A stretch of 32,406 nucleotides of DNA from positions 1 to 32,406 of IMG/VR virus record IMGVR_UViG_3300027708_000217; one strand, written 5' to 3'. The position numbers and the translations under genes were made by a program. The notes under the pieces were generated by a model that saw only the letters and a list, made by a program, of their open reading frames with translations, was not told the DNA's origin and did no database searches. Of the stretch, positions 9,504-18,536 are shown piece after piece. Source of the stretch: a virus. Position 1 is the stretch's first letter, and the number at the start of each line of letters is the position of its first letter.

Positions 9504-9955
9504 TAACGGCCTAAATTAAGAATTACGCTAGGTTCAACTTGTTTAAAATATTGCTGAAGCGCAGGCACAGGCATATTTTGTAAATTATACGGTGACGGCG
9601 TAAACATTGTTTGCCCTTCAGGCGTTTGCGTCCAACTGCCACCAGGAGTTTGTTCTGAATGATATTTGCTTTGATCAGAAAATGTTGGATGATTGGGTTT
9701 TTTAAACATATCCGTGCCATGACCATTTTCAGCCGTTGCCGCGTCAGATTTCCAAAAACCTTTTAAATCATAATCATACAAATCTTTTATTTTGCCTGTT
9801 TTTGTCGCCCATTTTGTAAACGCTTTTTCTTCTGCAGGGGTTAGTTGCGTATTATGCGTAGCAGTAAAATCATACGGGTCAACCACATCCTGTGGCGCTG
9901 TTGCTAATTGTGCAAGCACGTTTGTCGGCATAGGGGCTAGTGCGTTAACAGGCAT
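9503..9955 (-). CDS. Conserved phage protein between terminase subunits, 150 aa
   Basis: Encodes 150 aa. An N-terminal Pro/Ala-rich segment is followed by NTQLTPAEEKAFTKWATKTG, then DLYDYDLKGFWKSD, KKPNHPTFSDQSKYH, GGSWTQTPEGQTMFTPSP and a C-terminal QQYFKQVEPSVILNLG. The YDLxGxxK, KPNHPTFS and YFKxVEP elements recur in a widespread phage family of unknown function, which I recognise by pattern only. It is coupled on both sides by one-base TAATG overlaps to the small and large terminase genes, so a role in packaging or head assembly is plausible but unproven. Confidence 0.82.
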   Translation of the reverse strand: MPVNALAPMPTNVLAQLATAPQDVVDPYDFTATHNTQLTPAEEKAFTKWATKTGKIKDLYDYDLKGFWKSDAATAENGHGTDMFKKPNHPTFSDQSKYHSEQTPGGSWTQTPEGQTMFTPSPYNLQNMPVPALQQYFKQVEPSVILNLGR

Positions 9956-10413
9956 TATTCTACCTTTTCTTTTAGTTTAGGTTTCACGTGGATCATAGGT
10001 TGAGCTTCTACTTCCTTGAATACGCCTTCAATTACTCTAGTTTGTGCTTGCTCAAGTGCCTGCGTGATGCTGATGCGTTGCTCAACATCAATCGATAACT
10101 GCTGTTTAGCCACCCAGCCATGTTGGTGCTTTAAGACTTCAAGCGCGGACTTAGCGTCGCCAGCAAGTGCTGCATCACGCAACACGTTTGCCATTTCAGC
10201 CTCGCCATCTGCACGACCTTTTAATTCTGCCATTTCAGCAATTGGGTCTAATTGGGTGAGTTGTCGGTACTCAGTAGGCAACATTCCAGATGCAAGCGCT
10301 AAAGAATCACCTTTTAATCCTAACTTAGAAGCGTTATAAATCCGCTCAAGCCTTGCTTCAGTTGCTTCGAGCTTGCGCACTTCATACGGAAAGGATTGGA
10401 AGTTATCAAACAT
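9955..10413 (-). CDS. Terminase small subunit
   Basis: Encodes 152 aa, predicted all-helical. It has SGMLPTEYRQLTQLDPIAEM, LKGRADGEAEMANVLRDAAL and LKHQHGWVAKQQLSIDVEQR, the arrangement of small-terminase proteins of P22/lambdoid-like phages found next to the large subunit. It should bind phage DNA at the packaging site and hand it to the large terminase. It is the first gene of the leftward packaging operon. The ATG at 10413 has no Shine-Dalgarno sequence, and the predicted transcript start is only about 11 bases upstream, so initiation on a very short leader is likely. The next in-frame Met is residue 44, inside the conserved part, so this start is preferred. Confidence 0.85.
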   Translation of the reverse strand: MFDNFQSFPYEVRKLEATEARLERIYNASKLGLKGDSLALASGMLPTEYRQLTQLDPIAEMAELKGRADGEAEMANVLRDAALAGDAKSALEVLKHQHGWVAKQQLSIDVEQRISITQALEQAQTRVIEGVFKEVEAQPMIHVKPKLKEKVE

Positions 10414-10430
10414 GATTGGATGTTAGCATA

Positions 10431-10459
10431 TTTCTAAAAAAATAAAAAGTTTTTGTAAA
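10431..10459 (-). promoter_or_regulatory. Putative sigma70-type promoter for the packaging/virion operon
   Basis: On the minus strand a -35 box TTTACA (10459-10454) and a -10-like box TAGAAA (10436-10431) are separated by 17 bases, ahead of the small-terminase gene. Transcription would start near 10424, leaving about 11 bases before the ATG. The -10 box matches consensus at four of six positions, so this is a moderate call. Confidence 0.45.
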
Positions 10460-10560
10460 CCCTCCGTTAGCATCAGGCCCTGTGGCTCAGGCCCTACCCC
10501 CCCCAGGCTGCAAGTTTTTTGCTTTCAACTGACGGGCGCCTGGCCGCGTGCAAGATTATA

Positions 10561-10901
10561 GGTCAAATTGTCAGATTGTCATTCAATTTAAATTGATAGC
10601 ATAAGGGCGACTAAACATATATTTATATGTCATATTGTCATTTGACAATTTGACTTATAAACATGATGCGAGGGCAATTTGGCTATTTGCATGGGACACG
10701 GAGCGATAGGTCAAATACGTCATATTGCCGACCATTTTGAATTGGTCACGTTCACTGTCATATATATGTAATATTTACTCTTATTAAATAGGTAGTAAAA
10801 GATGACAATTTGACCTATTCAACTCTCCAAACCTTGTCCTAATTGGGCATTTCGATTGTCATCGCCATGACAATTCGAGACAATTATTTGACAATTTGAC
10901 C
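10561..10901. repeat. Cluster of eight ATTGTCA/TGACAAT 7-mers (iteron or operator array)
   Basis: ATTGTCA occurs at 10567, 10575, 10634 and 10855. Its complement TGACAAT occurs at 10643, 10803, 10868 and 10889. Within this set a 13-mer, TGACAATTTGACC, is complete at 10803-10815 and 10889-10901, present in inverse orientation at 10561-10573, and one base different at 10643-10654/5. Some copies form inverted repeats: ATTGTCA-2 bases-TGACAAT (10634-10649) and ATTGTCAT-CGCC-ATGACAAT (10855-10874). The last copy contains TTGACA, a consensus -35 box. Such an array fits binding sites for a phage replication initiator or repressor. Confidence 0.8.
10855..10874. promoter_or_regulatory. Perfect 8-bp inverted repeat, operator-like
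   Basis: ATTGTCAT (10855-10862) and ATGACAAT (10867-10874) form a perfect palindrome around CGCC. It has no T-run, so a terminator is unlikely. Its arms are the same 7-mer found throughout the control region, so it looks like a dimer binding site. Confidence 0.55.
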
Positions 10902-10931
10902 AATATATTTACATAAATGCTACAAAACTTG

Positions 10932-10960
10932 TTGCAATCTAATTTTACCTATGGTCAAAT
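10932..10960 (+). promoter_or_regulatory. Candidate promoter of the 11009-12371 operon
   Basis: TTGCAA (10932-10937) and TCAAAT (10955-10960) are 17 bases apart, about 50 bases before the first gene of the rightward operon. An alternative -35, TTGACA at 10888-10893, lies inside the repeat cluster, but no good -10 box sits at the right distance. Weak matches, so the exact promoter is uncertain. Confidence 0.3.
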
Positions 10961-11008
10961 AGAACTGTAGTACTTAATTAATCTAATCTAAACGAAAGGC
11001 AATATAAA

Positions 11009-11494
11009 ATGACTACATTTGAAATAGAGGAAGTTTACACGGGGGGCGGATGCGAACAATTAGATGTTCGTTTTCCTGAATATGATGTGCAATTCAACAT
11101 ACAAGTGCATGACGATCAATCAATCCCAAAAGATGGGGAAAGATTTTGCTTTATCTTATGCAAACTAGGTTCAACTGATTGCGATGATTATATCGAAATA
11201 AGTGAATCATTTGATAACTTCAATCGTGAATCAATTGGCAAATGGTGCGAAGGTTATTTGGCCGCCAAAGGTATTTCTAAAACATTTCCACCAATTAGAG
11301 AATATGAATGTTATTTTTTAGACCTATTAAATCCATCTAGTAAATCAGTTATTCAATATCACAATATTGACTTTTTTAACCAAGGCGATTACTACGATGT
11401 AAACGACATAAATGAAATCATATTTATGAATGTTGGCGATAAGTGCAACAAATCATATGACAATGTAGAGCATTGGATTCGGAGGATCAAATAA
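11009..11494 (+). CDS. Unrecognised acidic protein, 161 aa
   Basis: First gene of the rightward small-gene operon, with AAAGG upstream of ATG 11009. The 161-aa product is acidic, rich in Asp, Tyr, Phe and Cys, with no membrane segment. The beginning (MTTFEIEEVYTGGGCEQLDV) reads like a beta-sheet domain. A later stretch, SIGKWCEGYLAAKGISKTFP, is more helical. I do not recognise a family. Expression upstream of small phage genes next to a probable control region suggests an early function such as host takeover or anti-defence, but that is only context. Confidence 0.75.
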   Translation: MTTFEIEEVYTGGGCEQLDVRFPEYDVQFNIQVHDDQSIPKDGERFCFILCKLGSTDCDDYIEISESFDNFNRESIGKWCEGYLAAKGISKTFPPIREYECYFLDLLNPSSKSVIQYHNIDFFNQGDYYDVNDINEIIFMNVGDKCNKSYDNVEHWIRRIK

Positions 11495-11700
11495 TGAAAC
11501 TTAACAAACCTCAAATTATGATGACCCGGGAAAACCTAATTAAATGGTGCCAGGCATGGGATAAAGACGGCGATTATTCGGATCAAATTATGATTGCCAA
11601 TGGCTACACTCCACTAACTAAAAAAGAGGCATATGATGCCGCAATGCTTTTGTGGAATGAATATATCACTAATGAAACTAATCACATTGAAGGGGCTTAA
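11494..11700 (+). CDS. Small protein, 68 aa
   Basis: The start is chosen at ATG 11494: GGAGG lies eight bases upstream and the ATG overlaps the stop of the preceding gene by one base (TAATG). An in-frame ATG at 11473 would add only seven residues without a better ribosome site. The product has MTRENLIKWCQAWDKDGDYS followed by YTPLTKKEAYDAAMLLWNEY, i.e. helical and charged. No family recognised. Confidence 0.75.
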   Translation: MKLNKPQIMMTRENLIKWCQAWDKDGDYSDQIMIANGYTPLTKKEAYDAAMLLWNEYITNETNHIEGA

Positions 11701-11702
11701 TT

Positions 11703-12026
11703 ATGTACCAAACAGTCAACTTACACGATTTTAGACAAGCATTTCAAGAAATACGCCCAAATAACTTTTCATATGAGGGTTTGGAAACTTTGTTTGATTA
11801 TTTTGAACAATTAGAAGACGAAACAGGCGGAAAAATAGAATTGGATGTTATCGCCTTATGTTGCGACTATACCGAAGCGTTACCTCGTACTATTGCCCAT
11901 GATTACAATATAGAGGTAATTGCAGGTAAAGATGACCCAATAAAAACAGTCTTAGCCTATTTGGAAAAGCAAACTTGTATTGTTGGCGTAACCGAAAATA
12001 AACGAATCATATATCAAAACTTTTAA
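11703..12026 (+). CDS. Conserved phage early protein (IELDVIALCCDYTE family), 107 aa
   Basis: Encodes 107 aa behind AAGGGG. The core NFSYEGLETLFDYFEQLEDE and IELDVIALCCDYTEA is a pattern shared by many unrelated phages, always as a small cytoplasmic protein of unknown role. The C-terminus ends in RIIYQNF. Adjacent cysteines (CC) and the acidic surface are typical of this group. It sits in the middle of the rightward operon. A regulatory or host-interaction role would fit an early gene but is not established. Confidence 0.82.
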   Translation: MYQTVNLHDFRQAFQEIRPNNFSYEGLETLFDYFEQLEDETGGKIELDVIALCCDYTEALPRTIAHDYNIEVIAGKDDPIKTVLAYLEKQTCIVGVTENKRIIYQNF

Positions 12027-12389: not shown

Positions 12390-12417
12390 AAAGCCCCTTA
12401 ATTGGGGCTTTCTTTTT
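12390..12417. terminator. Bidirectional intrinsic terminator between convergent operons
   Basis: AAAGCCCC (12390-12397) pairs with GGGGCTTT (12404-12411) across TTAATT, followed by a T-rich tail (CTTTTT) on the plus strand and preceded by an A-run that gives U's on the minus strand. It lies after the last rightward gene and just past the stop of the leftward primase gene, so it can end both messages. Confidence 0.85.
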
Positions 12418-14725
12418 ACTTGATTTTAACCATTTGAGGCGATGCAACATCCTCCACGGCTCGTCTTAACTCTGATTTACTTAACACACTAGCCAACTCT
12501 GGCGACGCATAAATATGTTTTTTACTCTTAAAATCAGCACTCGCTAGACGCCCACAATCAACCCATTGGGCTTCCTTTAGTGCATGGAGTAATGCGGCTT
12601 GAGGTACTTTCACGCCACTTGGGGCAGTACCTGCCAAACGATCACATAGTGCATGGAAAGGTGAACCTATCACCCCTTTTGTGAATTCACCCGTACGGTT
12701 TTTAAGCATTTCAACCAAATAACTTTCTGCCATACTCATGCCATGCTCAACCAGGTTAGCTTTAAACTCAGTCATCATTGGCGTAGCAGATGGATTAAAT
12801 TGACTCACATCACGGACGTGTAACCACGCTGAAATCGACTCAAAACCCCCCTTGCGATACCACGCCCATAATGCACTCGCACGCTCAGGATTCATACGAG
12901 GGGCAACAGACCACACGCAAAACCAGCGCCTATCCTGCGACGCTAAACTGATTGGCACGGGGTCATTACTAAACGCTAAAACGAACACCCTATTGGCCAT
13001 TTGGTATGGATGCAATCCTTTACGGTTGATAGGCAACATCTCGGGCGGCGCGGCAATAATTGGCTTGAGTTGGTTAGCCAATTGCCTGCGAGCTGCCGCG
13101 TCAGGCTCTTTTAATTCATTGATTAAAAGTATCTCGGATTCTAATTGATATCCCCATTGTGAATTAATAGAGTTGTTATCCATGATGCCACGGTTTTTAA
13201 GGTGACTGCCACACACCGCCCATATAAACGGCGCCCACATCGTATCTTTACCGCTACCCTCATCACCCCCATGCAATACAGCATGATTGATCTTAAGTTC
13301 AGGATATTGCACCTTAAACGCCATAATGTTCAGTATATGGTCTAACTCATCAGGGTCAGGCACTAAATCTCTACAATGGTCTAACCACGCTAAAATCGAC
13401 TTGTCATCAGCGACCACGCTTGAAACGTCAGGACGTGCATCACGCCAGCGGTTACCAAACAGATCACCATCGCGTGACACAATCACGCTCTCACCTGCAG
13501 CGTACGTGATACCTACAAGCGCTTTGGCGCCCATTGCTTGTCTATTCTCATCAAAACAGTTACTAGGCAGAATACGTGTGCCAGAGTGTATCGACTTGCA
13601 GTCTATATGACGGAACAAGGCATTAAAGGTCTGTCTTGATATCTCACGCCTATCTTGCATATCAAAGTAAGACTCATCATCTTGCACATATGCAAAACGC
13701 TCATACCATTGCGCCTTTTCAACACGTCCAAGCTCTTTACGCTCAACTTCGGCGATGATGGCATCAGAGTCAGTTGTAAACACTTCAGATGGACTGATTT
13801 TAGATAGGGCAACGGTCATGGCTTCTGCGATTAAATCATCACGCAAGCCATGATTGACAGTTGGGCCACCATTAGCACCCACCCACGCTAAAAACGACTT
13901 AGAATCAAAATCGACACAATGCGAGTGTAAGCAACAGTATGAACGGTCTAAAGGTTTGTACCTACCTTCAGGGTTGCCATCGGTATGCTCGGCATTATTA
14001 GGGCAGATAACGCTTAACCACCCCTCTCCATTAATTTTGGACAAAATGAGGCCTTGGTTGTTTAGCCATGCTAACACATCGTCGCCACCATTGTCTATAA
14101 GACGTAAAGGTGTATAGTGGTTCGTATCAGCAGGTTCAGGTGTTACCTCTAACGCATAACAAATTTGTTCTATTGTGTATTCACGTTCAGGATTAAACTG
14201 TATTAACTTGGATACAAACTCATTACGTCCAGGCTTCAGGTTGACAGAACCTGGCAAACGCACATTGCGCACGGCATTGGTTGCCCCTGCATCTGTATAG
14301 CCTGCATTTGCAATCGCTTTAACTGCTGCGGTAAACTCCCCCTTGGTTGGTTGCTCTGAGAAAGCGTAACCGTATTGAAAGTTCCCCTCTGATGTCTCTA
14401 AAATCCATGTCGGTGCAAGTGGTGGCACTTTAGACTTAGTGCCAATGTCATCTAGCATCATAAACAAAACATATTCGCAGTTGGCGGCTGACGCTGATAT
14501 ACGCCCATCTTCAAAACGATCAATAATAAACGACGCCGTATTGACGTACCAAGCTTCGCCATCACGCATCTTCTGACTAGGAAGGTATGCAGGCCACGTA
14601 CACTTGATGGCACCGTCAGCATGGAATTGCATCTGACCGTCTTTTAATTGTGGCTTTTGTCTAACAATTAACGCTGTCTCCCCTTCAGGGGCTAATTGTG
14701 TGATATAGTCTAATAGATTTTGCAA
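12416..14725 (-). CDS. Primase-helicase (RepB-like primase, zinc finger, SF3-type ATPase)
   Basis: Encodes 769 aa and probably combines primer synthesis and DNA unwinding at the fork. The N-terminal part resembles RepB/AEP-type primases, with LDDIGTK (91-97, catalytic acidic pair D92/D93) and VRLPGSVNLKPG (155-166). A Cys/His cluster follows, CPNNAEH (241-247) and CCLHSHC (264-270), which looks like a zinc site. The C-terminal half is a helicase-type ATPase of the DUF5906/SF3 kind: Walker A GGDEGSGKD (486-494), acidic ILLINE (532-537), sensor FSNDP (585-589) and QDRRWF (597-602). The start is TTG at 14725, chosen because AAGGA lies eight bases upstream; the next in-frame Met is residue 32. 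Confidence 0.88.
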   Translation of the reverse strand: MQNLLDYITQLAPEGETALIVRQKPQLKDGQMQFHADGAIKCTWPAYLPSQKMRDGEAWYVNTASFIIDRFEDGRISASAANCEYVLFMMLDDIGTKSKVPPLAPTWILETSEGNFQYGYAFSEQPTKGEFTAAVKAIANAGYTDAGATNAVRNVRLPGSVNLKPGRNEFVSKLIQFNPEREYTIEQICYALEVTPEPADTNHYTPLRLIDNGGDDVLAWLNNQGLILSKINGEGWLSVICPNNAEHTDGNPEGRYKPLDRSYCCLHSHCVDFDSKSFLAWVGANGGPTVNHGLRDDLIAEAMTVALSKISPSEVFTTDSDAIIAEVERKELGRVEKAQWYERFAYVQDDESYFDMQDRREISRQTFNALFRHIDCKSIHSGTRILPSNCFDENRQAMGAKALVGITYAAGESVIVSRDGDLFGNRWRDARPDVSSVVADDKSILAWLDHCRDLVPDPDELDHILNIMAFKVQYPELKINHAVLHGGDEGSGKDTMWAPFIWAVCGSHLKNRGIMDNNSINSQWGYQLESEILLINELKEPDAAARRQLANQLKPIIAAPPEMLPINRKGLHPYQMANRVFVLAFSNDPVPISLASQDRRWFCVWSVAPRMNPERASALWAWYRKGGFESISAWLHVRDVSQFNPSATPMMTEFKANLVEHGMSMAESYLVEMLKNRTGEFTKGVIGSPFHALCDRLAGTAPSGVKVPQAALLHALKEAQWVDCGRLASADFKSKKHIYASPELASVLSKSELRRAVEDVASPQMVKIK

Positions 14726-14754: not shown

Positions 14755-14783
14755 TCCCCTAGCTCATCTAGGGGATTTTTTTT
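14755..14783 (+). terminator. Hairpin plus T-run, plus-strand orientation, between two leftward genes
   Basis: TCCCCTAG (14755-14762) pairs with CTAGGGGA (14768-14775) around CTCAT, followed by eight T on the plus strand (14776-14783). In that direction it looks like a good intrinsic terminator. The flanking genes, however, run the other way, where the same hairpin lacks a U-run and sits in the 56-bp gap between polymerase and primase. It may stop antisense transcription or act as an mRNA-processing hairpin. Confidence 0.65.
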
Positions 14784-16746
14784 ACTTGCCGTAACGCGTC
14801 ATTACGCCTACTTCGATGTCTAAGGGTAAACCCTCTCCCCATGCAGGTGGCGTACACATGACTTGTTTCATTTTTTCTACGACAATTTCTGGCTCTGATG
14901 TTTCAACCACAATTTCATCATGGACGTGTAATACGACATCATCCAATCCACGCAAAGAATGTCGAAGTAGATCATTGGCGACAGCTTGTGTGATGTTCTC
15001 ACAGGCAAGACCACGCCATAATCGACCTCTAGGCCATTCGGTTGCGTCTGATGCTGGTTTCCATGCGGCTTTAGCATAACTGACTCCATCGGTTTCTAAT
15101 CGTGCGAATGGATAGCATAGCACACGTCCGCTAGGAAGTGCGTACCAAAGATGCTGACCGTCATACATATATGTGACACGCCCTGCGCTAAACTCATAAC
15201 CCTTGTTACGCATGGCACGGGTATACGCATTTTCAAGGTCTTGCCAATACTGTACTGCCCATGGATTAGCCATACGCCAACCATTAACCATCCGTTTAGC
15301 TTCGGCTTCAGGCAATAAAATACCATATGCCCTACCCATTGCAGCAAACGCGCCCACACCACCTGAAAAGCCACAAGCTAACTCTTGTACCTTACCAATT
15401 TGACGTTGCTCATTGGTGATTTGGTCAATAGGTACATGAAAAGTAGCGCTTGCGTTGACTTTATAAACATCTTCTTTTGTGCGAAATATGTCTAGTTTTT
15501 TAATCCCTGCAGGGCAATTCGATAGCCAAGGATTGACTCTAGCCTCAACTGCCGACCAGTCAGCAACGACTAATGATTTTCCCCTATCGGGTATGAGGGC
15601 AGGTCGTAACATGGACTTGAGTACATCTGTGATACGACGTCCAAAGGCAGGGACAATTGAGTGGCCTCTAACCATAGCTTGTCTAACGGCATCTGGATCT
15701 TTAGCGGACTTGCGGGTGAAATTATGGACTTGGGCGCCATAACTGCTAGCACGCCCTGTCGCTGATCCTCCTGCAAACACAAATGCGCCACGAACTCGGT
15801 AATCTTCTTCATCGGCTAATTCCTTTAATCGGTTAAATTTGGCAACGCTCGACGCCCATAGGTCGTCCGCACATTGGATAACATCTGCAACTTGCGGCGG
15901 TACTTCGTCTGCGTTCTCGCTGGCAAGTATGAGTAAATTAGCCCTAATAGTTTTATCGATTGAATATTTCTTTTCTCCATCTTTATACACTTCCATTAAT
16001 TTTTTAGCTTGGTCACCAACACGTGCTAACACCCATTCACGCATTTTAGAACTACGTACACTTGTAATCTCACCTTCAGTCACCTCGGCAACAATACGCT
16101 CAATTTCTTCTAGCTCAACGCTTGCGTATTTAATTGCTGATTCAGCAAGCGATTTATCTAACAACACGCCACGGTCATTAATCTGCTCATTAATATGATA
16201 ATCCATCAGCTCATCATCTGAAAGCTGACGCATAGCTTGACTAATCGCACGCATTGCTCGAACGTCCTGCTCGCAGTAAGCCACCATCTCATCCATCAAA
16301 ATAGGGTCGTCATTAAACGTGCCATCACTTTTAGGAATTGATAGCAGGCGAATCAACTGATTGCCTCTATGGTCTTTACGCATATTGGAACTTGCAAATC
16401 TGCCAACATCTTCTAATGAGCCTGGCGCACAGTTAGCGCGTGCTTGTGTTGCGGTGCAAAAAAATTGTTCTAGTTTTGGTTCAGGTATACCTTGATCAGG
16501 ACATAAAACATACCACATAATCAAACGCTCAAACGCCGCATTATGCGCCCTAATTTGACCACCTGAAACAATAAAATCAACAATTTTTTGTGGAAAAGGT
16601 TGATGCGGACGCCAAGACTGCACGTCCTCATCATCGAACGCATATGAAAGGCATAGCACCGAAGTGCTGGCATCCCTAGCGTAGTTGTAGACGCCATGAC
16701 TGATTAGGTCGCAGCGACTACGCGTCTCGAAATCAATCCAAAGCAT
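14782..16746 (-). CDS. Family A DNA polymerase with 3'-5' exonuclease domain
   Basis: The phage replicative polymerase, 654 aa from ATG 16746. Exonuclease motifs: MLWIDFETRS (D5, E7), AHNAAFE (exo II; Glu rather than the usual Asp) and YCEQD (157-161). Polymerase motifs: VVADWSAVEAR (motif A, D396), RQIGKVQELACGFSGG (O helix: R448, K452) and HVHDE (motif C, 607-611). By alignment to E. coli Pol I (R754, K758, F762, Y766), the 762 position is L456 and the 766 position is F460. No 5'-3' exonuclease domain is present. The ATG at 16746 overlaps the upstream stop by one base (TGATG); a TTG at 16749 would add a single residue. Confidence 0.95.
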   Translation of the reverse strand: MLWIDFETRSRCDLISHGVYNYARDASTSVLCLSYAFDDEDVQSWRPHQPFPQKIVDFIVSGGQIRAHNAAFERLIMWYVLCPDQGIPEPKLEQFFCTATQARANCAPGSLEDVGRFASSNMRKDHRGNQLIRLLSIPKSDGTFNDDPILMDEMVAYCEQDVRAMRAISQAMRQLSDDELMDYHINEQINDRGVLLDKSLAESAIKYASVELEEIERIVAEVTEGEITSVRSSKMREWVLARVGDQAKKLMEVYKDGEKKYSIDKTIRANLLILASENADEVPPQVADVIQCADDLWASSVAKFNRLKELADEEDYRVRGAFVFAGGSATGRASSYGAQVHNFTRKSAKDPDAVRQAMVRGHSIVPAFGRRITDVLKSMLRPALIPDRGKSLVVADWSAVEARVNPWLSNCPAGIKKLDIFRTKEDVYKVNASATFHVPIDQITNEQRQIGKVQELACGFSGGVGAFAAMGRAYGILLPEAEAKRMVNGWRMANPWAVQYWQDLENAYTRAMRNKGYEFSAGRVTYMYDGQHLWYALPSGRVLCYPFARLETDGVSYAKAAWKPASDATEWPRGRLWRGLACENITQAVANDLLRHSLRGLDDVVLHVHDEIVVETSEPEIVVEKMKQVMCTPPAWGEGLPLDIEVGVMTRYGK

Positions 16747-17396
16747 CAAGCACCACGGCGACGGCGTGTTGCAGGTGCTTCTACAGCAGGCGCTTCAACT
16801 TCTTTTGGTGCTTCTTCTTTTGTTTCCACGAGCATACTTACCCATTCTTGAATATCGAATATGGGTGTATAGATACGGCCATACGACTTGTGACTGTAAT
16901 GCTCTTTCTTGAGCAATACAATTGGTACTGGCTTAGTTTGATCTGCTTCAACTTGTGTGGCAATAGCAACTGCTAGGGCTTGAACTGCACGCTTACCACC
17001 AACAGACGTTGTTGTATAGCGAACTTCCATGCCCTTGTCATCTCCAGATACGCACTTCATAGACATACCAACTTGCGTTTCCCAACCCTTCTTGGCATTA
17101 GGTGGCGCAGCATCAAGTTCAGGCAATGGCTGAGATACAGATACCATTTTCTCGCCAAGCACTTCACCATCACCCCATGCGATGTGACCATGCACGAATG
17201 AGAACGGATTGACTGCCCATGTGGAATCATCTTCGATTTCGGTTTGATCTGCACCGAATACCCAATGACCTGTTTTGTCCATCTTAATAATGACAACGCC
17301 TGCGGTTCCCACATCGGTTTCTAAGGCACGAAGTGCGGTAGATAATGCGGTAACTGAAGGTAAATTTGCTGCTGAAAATGTAGTTAAATTTGACAT
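16746..17396 (-). CDS. Putative single-stranded DNA-binding protein, 216 aa
   Basis: Encodes 216 aa, between the Cas4-like nuclease and the polymerase. Residues 1-180 look like a mixed beta domain with aromatic residues (KTGHWVFGAD, WAVNPFSFVHGHIAWGDGEV, KKGWETQVGMSMKCVS). The tail is acidic and Pro/Ala-rich (EEAPKEVEAPAVEAPA) and ends in RRRRGA. A folded nucleic-acid-binding domain plus a disordered tail, encoded beside polymerase and nuclease, is the usual layout of phage ssDNA-binding proteins. The basic tip is unlike the acidic tip of bacterial SSB. No OB-fold motif can be proven by eye. AAGGA precedes ATG 17396. Confidence 0.6.
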   Translation of the reverse strand: MSNLTTFSAANLPSVTALSTALRALETDVGTAGVVIIKMDKTGHWVFGADQTEIEDDSTWAVNPFSFVHGHIAWGDGEVLGEKMVSVSQPLPELDAAPPNAKKGWETQVGMSMKCVSGDDKGMEVRYTTTSVGGKRAVQALAVAIATQVEADQTKPVPIVLLKKEHYSHKSYGRIYTPIFDIQEWVSMLVETKEEAPKEVEAPAVEAPATRRRRGA

Positions 17397-17408
17397 TTGT
17401 TTAGTTCC

Positions 17409-18536
17409 TTATTGGATTTTAGAAAGGGCTGCGGTGAGTTGCTTCCCGATTTGTACAACGGCTGGGCGAGGATCATCTTCTCGCGCCAACGTACTGCCAC
17501 TACTTACTGCTACTACTAAGTCATCAGGCAGTTTGGTTCCTGACTTCTTGAGTACCTTTTCTGCTTGCGCAGGTGAAATCATTTTAGATACATACAGTTC
17601 ATCTTTAGGGATGACTTTAGATAATACATCATCTGCAATGTCTTCATTAGCCCATTGACGTGTGGCACGCTTGTTGACCAACTTCCAACCAGGCACAGGC
17701 ACATCGGCTTCTAACATCTGATGTGCTAATGCACGTAAGTCTGTAATCCATTGTTCTAACAAATCGCAGTTAGCCAAATAAGAACCAATTTTGTCAGCGT
17801 CTAACGATTTAATTTGTAGGTTAACTGCTCTATCTACTGCACCTGTCATTTTAGGGCAAACAGGTTTGGCTGCACACCAACGGCAATGGTCGCCTGCCAT
17901 AATAGGCGCATCTGTTTTTGTTGATTTTTGTACGGCTTGTGCAAGTTGCAATTCAAACTGCTTAACACGCTCAACAGTTGTCACCCAACTTCTAAGTGTA
18001 GGTGGCTGAATGATGACACATTCAATCTCTGTCACACCTTCAAACACCCAAGATACTGACGGTGTGCGCATGGCCGCAGCTGCGTAAAATAACAACTGTT
18101 CGTTTTCTTCTACACCAACGGCTACGCCATCACCAAACTTCCAATCTAAAACAATAGCACGATTGCCAATGCGACCAAGCAAATCACATGAACCAAATAC
18201 GTCAGGTAAGAAATCACCAAAGTTAACTTCGGTTTCTACTGCATATTCCATCTCAAGATTAGGATCAACAACACCTAACAAATCAAGGGCTTTATGCAGT
18301 TTGTTTTCTATTAATTCTTCTGTTAACACTTGATCTTGATACGTCATGCCAAGTAATGATTCAGGCGATACATCTTTACCTAAAACTTGTGCAATTGCAT
18401 CGTGTAATAACGTGCCTTCGTCAGCGTACTTGCTACTAGGCTTAGGTGGCATTGTTGCACTTAGTGCTACAGATCCAGGACAAGCAATAACGCGCTTGGC
18501 TGTTGAACCACCGACTATTTTTGAATGATTTGACAT
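17409..18536 (-). CDS. PD-(D/E)XK nuclease with Fe-S cysteines, DUF2800/Cas4-like
   Basis: Encodes 375 aa. Nuclease residues can be followed: EGTLLHDAI (H45), SCDLLG (D118), VLDWKFGDG (D131, K133) and NEQLLFYAAA (Q147, Y151). Four cysteines, C19 in ACPGS plus C218, C221 and C227 in HCRWCAAKPVCPKM, match the iron-sulphur arrangement of Cas4/AddB-type exonucleases. Phage proteins of the DUF2800 family like this occur next to polymerase genes and probably process DNA ends during replication or recombination. First gene of the leftward replication operon, with AAAGGAA before its ATG and a divergent promoter pair upstream. It is not a CRISPR adaptation protein here, since no array or other cas gene is present. 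Confidence 0.88.
   Translation of the reverse strand: MSNHSKIVGGSTAKRVIACPGSVALSATMPPKPSSKYADEGTLLHDAIAQVLGKDVSPESLLGMTYQDQVLTEELIENKLHKALDLLGVVDPNLEMEYAVETEVNFGDFLPDVFGSCDLLGRIGNRAIVLDWKFGDGVAVGVEENEQLLFYAAAAMRTPSVSWVFEGVTEIECVIIQPPTLRSWVTTVERVKQFELQLAQAVQKSTKTDAPIMAGDHCRWCAAKPVCPKMTGAVDRAVNLQIKSLDADKIGSYLANCDLLEQWITDLRALAHQMLEADVPVPGWKLVNKRATRQWANEDIADDVLSKVIPKDELYVSKMISPAQAEKVLKKSGTKLPDDLVVAVSSGSTLAREDDPRPAVVQIGKQLTAALSKIQ

Follow-up and report, generated by a model that had tools for sequence, protein, structure and literature searches.

The window, a 32.4-kb virus record, carries at 10561-10901 an array of short repeats, whose units are ATTGTCA (TGACAAT on the opposite strand) and the 13-bp form GGTCAAATTGTCA. 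The original prediction had described eight copies of the 7-mer, four per direction, as far above chance. Counting over the whole window located eight exact copies within 10567-10895, at 10567, 10575, 10634 and 10855 on the plus strand and at 10643, 10803, 10868 and 10889 on the minus strand, whereas 5000 Markov simulations of the intergenic region 10414-11008 with its own dinucleotides averaged 0.16 copies and reached 3 at most, confirming the excess. The window total was 13 copies versus 7.1 expected from whole-window shuffles; thus, the five copies outside the array are background. The 13-bp form and the two inverted pairs were likewise found: three 13-bp copies are exact (10561, plus; 10803 and 10889, minus) and one has a single change (10643, minus), and the pairs lie at 10628-10655 and 10855-10874. 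GGTCAAATTGTCA comprises two half-sites, GTCA-N4-GTCA, 8 bp apart, and the array as a whole consists of paired direct repeats with half-sites 8-9 bp apart. Its units occupy 10561-10573, 10569-10581, 10628-10640 and 10855-10861 on the plus strand and 10643-10655, 10803-10815, 10868-10874 and 10889-10901 on the minus strand, with degenerate sites at 10709 (a pair, 10709-10722, plus strand) and 10953. The units flank on both sides an AT-rich centre (10757-10802), a candidate unwinding element, and a 60-mer of 78% AT was found between the two flanks. Multiple short direct repeats and an AT-rich element between them, both of which are features of iteron origins, are present here, and a scan for repeated 7-mers detected no second array in the window.

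TTGACA boxes, one of which the original prediction had noted in an array copy, lie at 10642 and 10888, but promoter-like matches in the array region were not above shuffles (7 found versus 9.3 expected). A sigma-70-like match (11/12) on the minus strand at 10555-10582 shares sequence with the first two iterons and faces the gene of the putative small terminase; iteron binding there might couple replication to late transcription. GC skew, which had been suggested as a check, follows gene direction and is therefore uninformative on an origin. At 10463-10545, in the gap that separates the array from the putative small terminase gene, eight consecutive C (G in some relatives) form part of an imperfect inverted repeat (CTCCGTCAGCA / TGCTGACGGGCG in locus L011), which was present in the close relatives read and is a candidate packaging site. 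Just right of the array, at 10918-10960, a palindrome-like TGCAACAAAA..GTTGCA with a promoter-like sequence is common to relatives of different iteron type, and is probably the promoter of the small-gene operon.

The first gene left of the array (9955-10413, minus strand) encodes a putative small terminase, which has no PHROG or Pfam match. To the right, three small plus-strand genes of 161, 68 and 107 aa (11009-12026) separate the array from a minus-strand gene (12416-14725) for a primase-SF3 helicase of 769 aa, our proposed initiator, the stop of which lies 1.5 kb from the array. The small genes are poorly conserved, being found in 5, 3 and 21 of 104 related loci, respectively, and other small genes stand in their place even in the closest relatives. 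The helicase matched RepB_primase PF16793 (26.8 bits, cut-off 24.3), DUF5906 (39.8 bits, cut-off 27.6) and primase PHROGs, and has a Walker-A-like GGDEGSGKD at residue 486 and a motif-C-like FSN at residue 585. It is thus a primase domain fused to an SF3/D5-like helicase, as in proteins of the SaPI5 Rep and P4 alpha type. The rest of the replication module (14782-18536, minus strand) encodes DNA polymerase A, a 216-aa phrog_9528 protein, whose DUF2815 label rests on position only, and a DUF2800 nuclease.

Relatives were then examined in 80 IMG/VR loci fetched with the putative small terminase as the anchor gene. In most loci examined, a dense short-repeat array lies upstream of the anchor gene; it holds its place and layout, and the repeated word differs (GTGGACAA, TTGGGTCA, TGTAGTCA, TGTAAGTCA and others). 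ATTGTCA recurs in some relatives, and GTCCACA/TGGACAA, TGACCCA, TAGCCCA, ATGACTA, ACTAACA or CTTACA are found in others. Even in locus L009, which has 99% identity with the window in the anchor protein, CTTACA/TAAGTCA replaces ATTGTCA. Between L009 and L011 the iterons differ, with almost no difference in the AT-rich centre and right flank. In the comparison of L167 with L171, which align at 71%, the left units were changed in place from TGTGGAC to TGTGGGT/C, and TGTCCACAA was retained on the right. In L171 the helicase wing is KSREFGT, G replacing D733, and TGTGGGT/C and TGTGGAC units occur together in the array, so that a switch is possibly seen here in mid-course. Conservation in relatives, by which the original prediction was to stand or fall, therefore has two sides: the word itself is often not conserved, but the place, the layout and the match to the helicase wing are kept. 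Because the word varies while the place and the wing match persist, taking non-conservation in related phages as refutation would have misled.

Of 50 records, 39 contained the primase-helicase, and another scan yielded 80 loci that were mostly new. When the helicases were aligned, the C-terminal sequence near residues 726-742 grouped according to array type. We then quantified this in 104 distinct related loci by relating array similarity, calculated from repeated 6-mers only, to helicase identity in 20-aa bins, with correction for residues 451-690. Bin 721-740 had a partial r of 0.63 with array similarity, whereas no other helicase bin exceeded 0.17; the flanking bins 701-720 and 741-760 had 0.07 and 0.09, respectively. 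The best five of the 769 helicase columns were 733, 728, 730, 734 and 731. For the other genes, each with at least 26 usable loci, partial r was 0.02 to 0.13; these were the portal, the large (0.10) and small (0.13) terminases, polymerase A, the phrog_9528 protein, the DUF2800 nuclease, a VRR-NUC-like protein and an SNF2-like helicase. The 107-aa gene reached 0.27 in 21 loci. Genes present in at most eight loci (those of 161, 68, 150 and 122 aa and the phosphoesterase) fell outside proper correlation. Among the genes tested, none besides the helicase wing covaries strongly with the array. The statement that no cognate initiator gene lay beside the array was wrong in effect, given the covarying primase-helicase 1.5 kb to the right, and the three binders that had been named found no support from occurrence or covariation in related loci: the 161-aa gene had no relative in a first IMG/VR scan and occurs in 5 of 104 loci, the HTH-phosphoesterase occurs in 3 of 104 (the loci do not always reach its gene), and covariation of the small terminase was no greater than that of other genes.

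The structural setting of the covarying residues was examined with an AlphaFold model of residues 600-769 built from 64 sequences. It predicted a C-terminal winged-helix domain at about residues 664-740 (12506-12736, minus strand), with pLDDT of about 82-94 in 10-residue blocks; helix 3 and the wing reach about 91-94. In this model, helix 3 spans residues 709-718, and the strands of a beta-hairpin span 722-727 and 736-740, joined by a loop of residues 728-735 (ASADFKSK; 12521-12544, minus strand). The covarying residues sit in this loop of the wing, which is the sole part of the helicase that covaries with iteron sequence. The near invariance of the recognition helix of the domain is a point against the model, and that the wing carries the specificity is our inference. 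A fold search returned generic winged helices only (Z 4.2-6.5), which included replication terminator protein, ArgR and the C-terminal region of the NrS-1 primase. The C-terminal domain of P4 alpha was not among the sequence or fold matches listed, which proves nothing.

Wing type and iteron word were found to pair by class. Loci with an LAS[AH]D wing had on average 8.4 TTGTCA and 0.0 TGGACA cores, whereas those with a KSR[ED] wing had 0.6 and 8.3, respectively; ASGDF wings went with 12.7 GGGTCA cores and LM[SAC]R wings with 9.1 TAGTCA cores. In full, LAS[AH]D(F/Y)(K/T/P)S pairs with GGTCAAATTGTCA; (I/L/V)KSR(E/D)(F/Y)D with TGTGGACAA and in some loci with TGTGGGCA or TGTGGGTA; VASGDF(Q/P)S with TTTGGGTCA; LM(S/A/C)R(D/E)(Y/F) with TGTAGTCA or TGTTAGTCA; LYSREYAT with TGTAGGCA; IASRDYTT with TGTAAGTCA; and IASRELIT with TGTGGGCTA. 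When aligned, the iteron cores have G at position 3 in common and mostly end in CA. An exception is L158, in which a K-type wing accompanies an array resembling TGTGGGTCA; in several deep lineages, moreover, the arrays are mixed.

To follow this pairing through descent, a helicase tree was built from residues 250-700, leaving out the wing. The four main array types changed at least 19 times on this tree, and the wing changed along with them. In about 12 independent pairs the K-type array went with D733, and in none against it (median p about 0.001); the T-type array went with A728 in 7 of 7 independent pairs. Between close pairs of different type, 56-78% of wing residues differed compared with 3-8% elsewhere, whereas pairs of the same type differed at 0-1 wing residue. 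When near-copies were excluded, the array was predicted better from the closest match of the wing (cosine 0.45) than from that of the rest of the helicase (0.25). Of the loci found later in genome_contigs, L198 and L196 carried the arrays that their wings predict: L198 (C-terminal helicase identity 58%) combines a KSR..D wing with 12 copies of GTCCACA, and L196 (74%) combines an ASRD.TT wing like that of L009 with an ATGTAAG/GCTTACA array; L197 (no flank), L199 and L200 were without a usable array. Iterons to the left of the AT-rich centre mostly point right, and those on its right mostly left. Orientation towards the centre was found for 177 of 196 iterons in the T class (permuted strands at most 157), 305 of 370 in the K class (at most 294) and 98 of 116 in the G class (at most 93), and for 53 of 64 in the M class, a level that permuted strands reach.

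Layout, AT-rich centre and helicase-wing covariation thus support, on sequence grounds, the predicted origin with iterons. The array is very probably (a probability of about 0.88) the replication origin of this phage, its iterons being bound by the C-terminal winged helix of the phage's own primase-SF3 helicase. We infer physical binding, origin activity and the loading of two rings as follows. The winged-helix domain would bind iterons on both sides of the AT-rich centre, and, as these mostly point inwards, two helicase rings would be loaded; the rings would open the AT-rich centre and prime both forks, which the phage polymerase A could then extend. Loop 728-735 would set the word that is read, so that wing and iterons would change together. 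By analogy with SaPI Rep or P4 alpha, a primase-helicase that loads itself is the explanation that best fits these data. Lying between divergent operons, the array could also act on transcription.

An alternative is that the array is a multi-site operator, on which the helicase or a repressor controls the divergent operons, as in superinfection-immunity systems, and that the origin lies elsewhere. The position between a leftward packaging operon and the rightward small-gene operon would suit an operator, as would the promoter-like match that overlaps the first two units (10582-10555), and immunity operators are also known to diversify. We nevertheless consider this unlikely: the covarying protein is a primase-helicase and no separate repressor covaries among the genes correlated, up to 17 copies over several hundred bp around an AT-rich centre exceed what an operator needs, the promoter matches do not rise above shuffles, and the window has no other array that could be the origin. 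Still less likely is linkage by recombinational exchange of a block that begins in the C-terminal part of the helicase and reaches across the small genes as far as the array, the true binder being a host protein or an unrecognised phage protein. In its favour, the distance from the helicase 3' end to the array is 1.5-4 kb, and the intervening 107-aa gene does covary weakly; however, linkage predicts covariation over the whole C-terminus, and residues 701-720 and 741-769 were near background (0.07-0.16). Moreover, a block swap does not give iterons that differ around a shared centre and right flank, as in L009 and L011, and the same pairing of type and wing recurs in distant clades. Block recombination was thus rejected as the cause of the covariation, which is confined to the wing while the backbone between iterons is common to L009 and L011. 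That the array serves partition, packaging or DNA structure and takes no part in initiation is very improbable: it adjoins the putative small terminase, and terminases also recognise repeated sites, but neither terminase covaries with the array beyond background.

The proposed origin can be compared with known systems. SaPI Rep recognises, through its C-terminal domain, an iteron origin situated downstream of the Rep gene, and the C-terminal domain of Cch2 binds its putative origin (PMC7581432). The present helicase resembles SaPI Rep and SCCmec Cch2, which are D5/Primase_Cterm self-loading helicases, in its SF3-type helicase, fused to a primase in SaPI5, and in the C-terminal iteron recognition proposed here. 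It differs in that it belongs to a phage with its own polymerase A, that small genes separate its proposed origin from the helicase gene by 1.5 kb or more, whereas the SaPI origin is directly downstream, and that very many iteron types occur within one phage group. The alpha protein of satellite phage P4 is alike in the origin iterons proposed here, but its primase is of the Toprim type, in contrast to the RepB-type domain of the helicase, and P4 has a second array, crr, the like of which the window lacks; no sequence relation to the alpha domain was detectable among the sequence matches listed. Lambdoid phages have type-specific O initiators and origin iterons among relatives, a likeness to the present case, but O is an unrelated protein that recruits host DnaB, and its origin lies inside the O gene. 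RepA of the Vibrio cholerae PLE satellites is an initiator without a helicase part. The PLE RepA_N DNA-binding domain and ori iterons covary and have been swapped, and their match is required for replication (PMC8263062). There, whole domains were swapped among few types, whereas here a wing loop changes in phages. The phage NrS-1 primase-polymerase-helicase gave a sequence match in its helicase domain (6k9c, E 8e-6) and a weak fold match in its C-terminal part (Z 4.8); unlike the window phage, NrS-1 has no iteron array, its genome containing only two 8-nt recognition sequences (PMC7102993).

Self-loading helicases with C-terminal origin-binding domains are already known, as is origin/initiator covariation with domain swapping in PLE satellites (PMC8263062). 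As far as our searches show, the proposed origin and initiator of this phage group are new, and so is the mapping of many switches in specificity to a wing of eight residues. Sequence alone thereby identifies a probable initiator and origin for a large, mostly uncultured phage group, and the natural switches offer a ready data set on the joint change of a DNA-binding protein and its ten or more target sites, with intermediate states suggested by variants such as L171. As a tentative suggestion, possible rather than probable, the short wing loop may be a natural, nearly readable code for origin sequence, with origin type switched repeatedly by site-by-site iteron change under selection from an exploiter or attacker of the origin, such as co-infecting relatives, helicase-borrowing satellites or origin-directed nucleases like ICP1 Odn. 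The natural switches also make testable the reason for such changes of origin type, be it avoidance of copying by relatives and parasites in the same cell or of competition with them.

More than 400 related helicase stretches were matched in IMG/VR. Host evidence from MAG contigs is thin: three of six contigs with relatives were betaproteobacterial (two from one Rhodoferax MAG), and one belonged to an actinobacterial bin; binned viral contigs can also be misplaced. Among named phages, a DNA search returned one record, MW202483.1, which was also the only one to match the helicase at more than 50% in a protein search. This public complete genome (L195) has a helicase 54% identical to that of the window, another wing and a GTTTACA array beside the terminase genes. 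At 10712-11158 of this genome, the origin-like GTTTACA array is separated from the terminase genes by a homing endonuclease gene.
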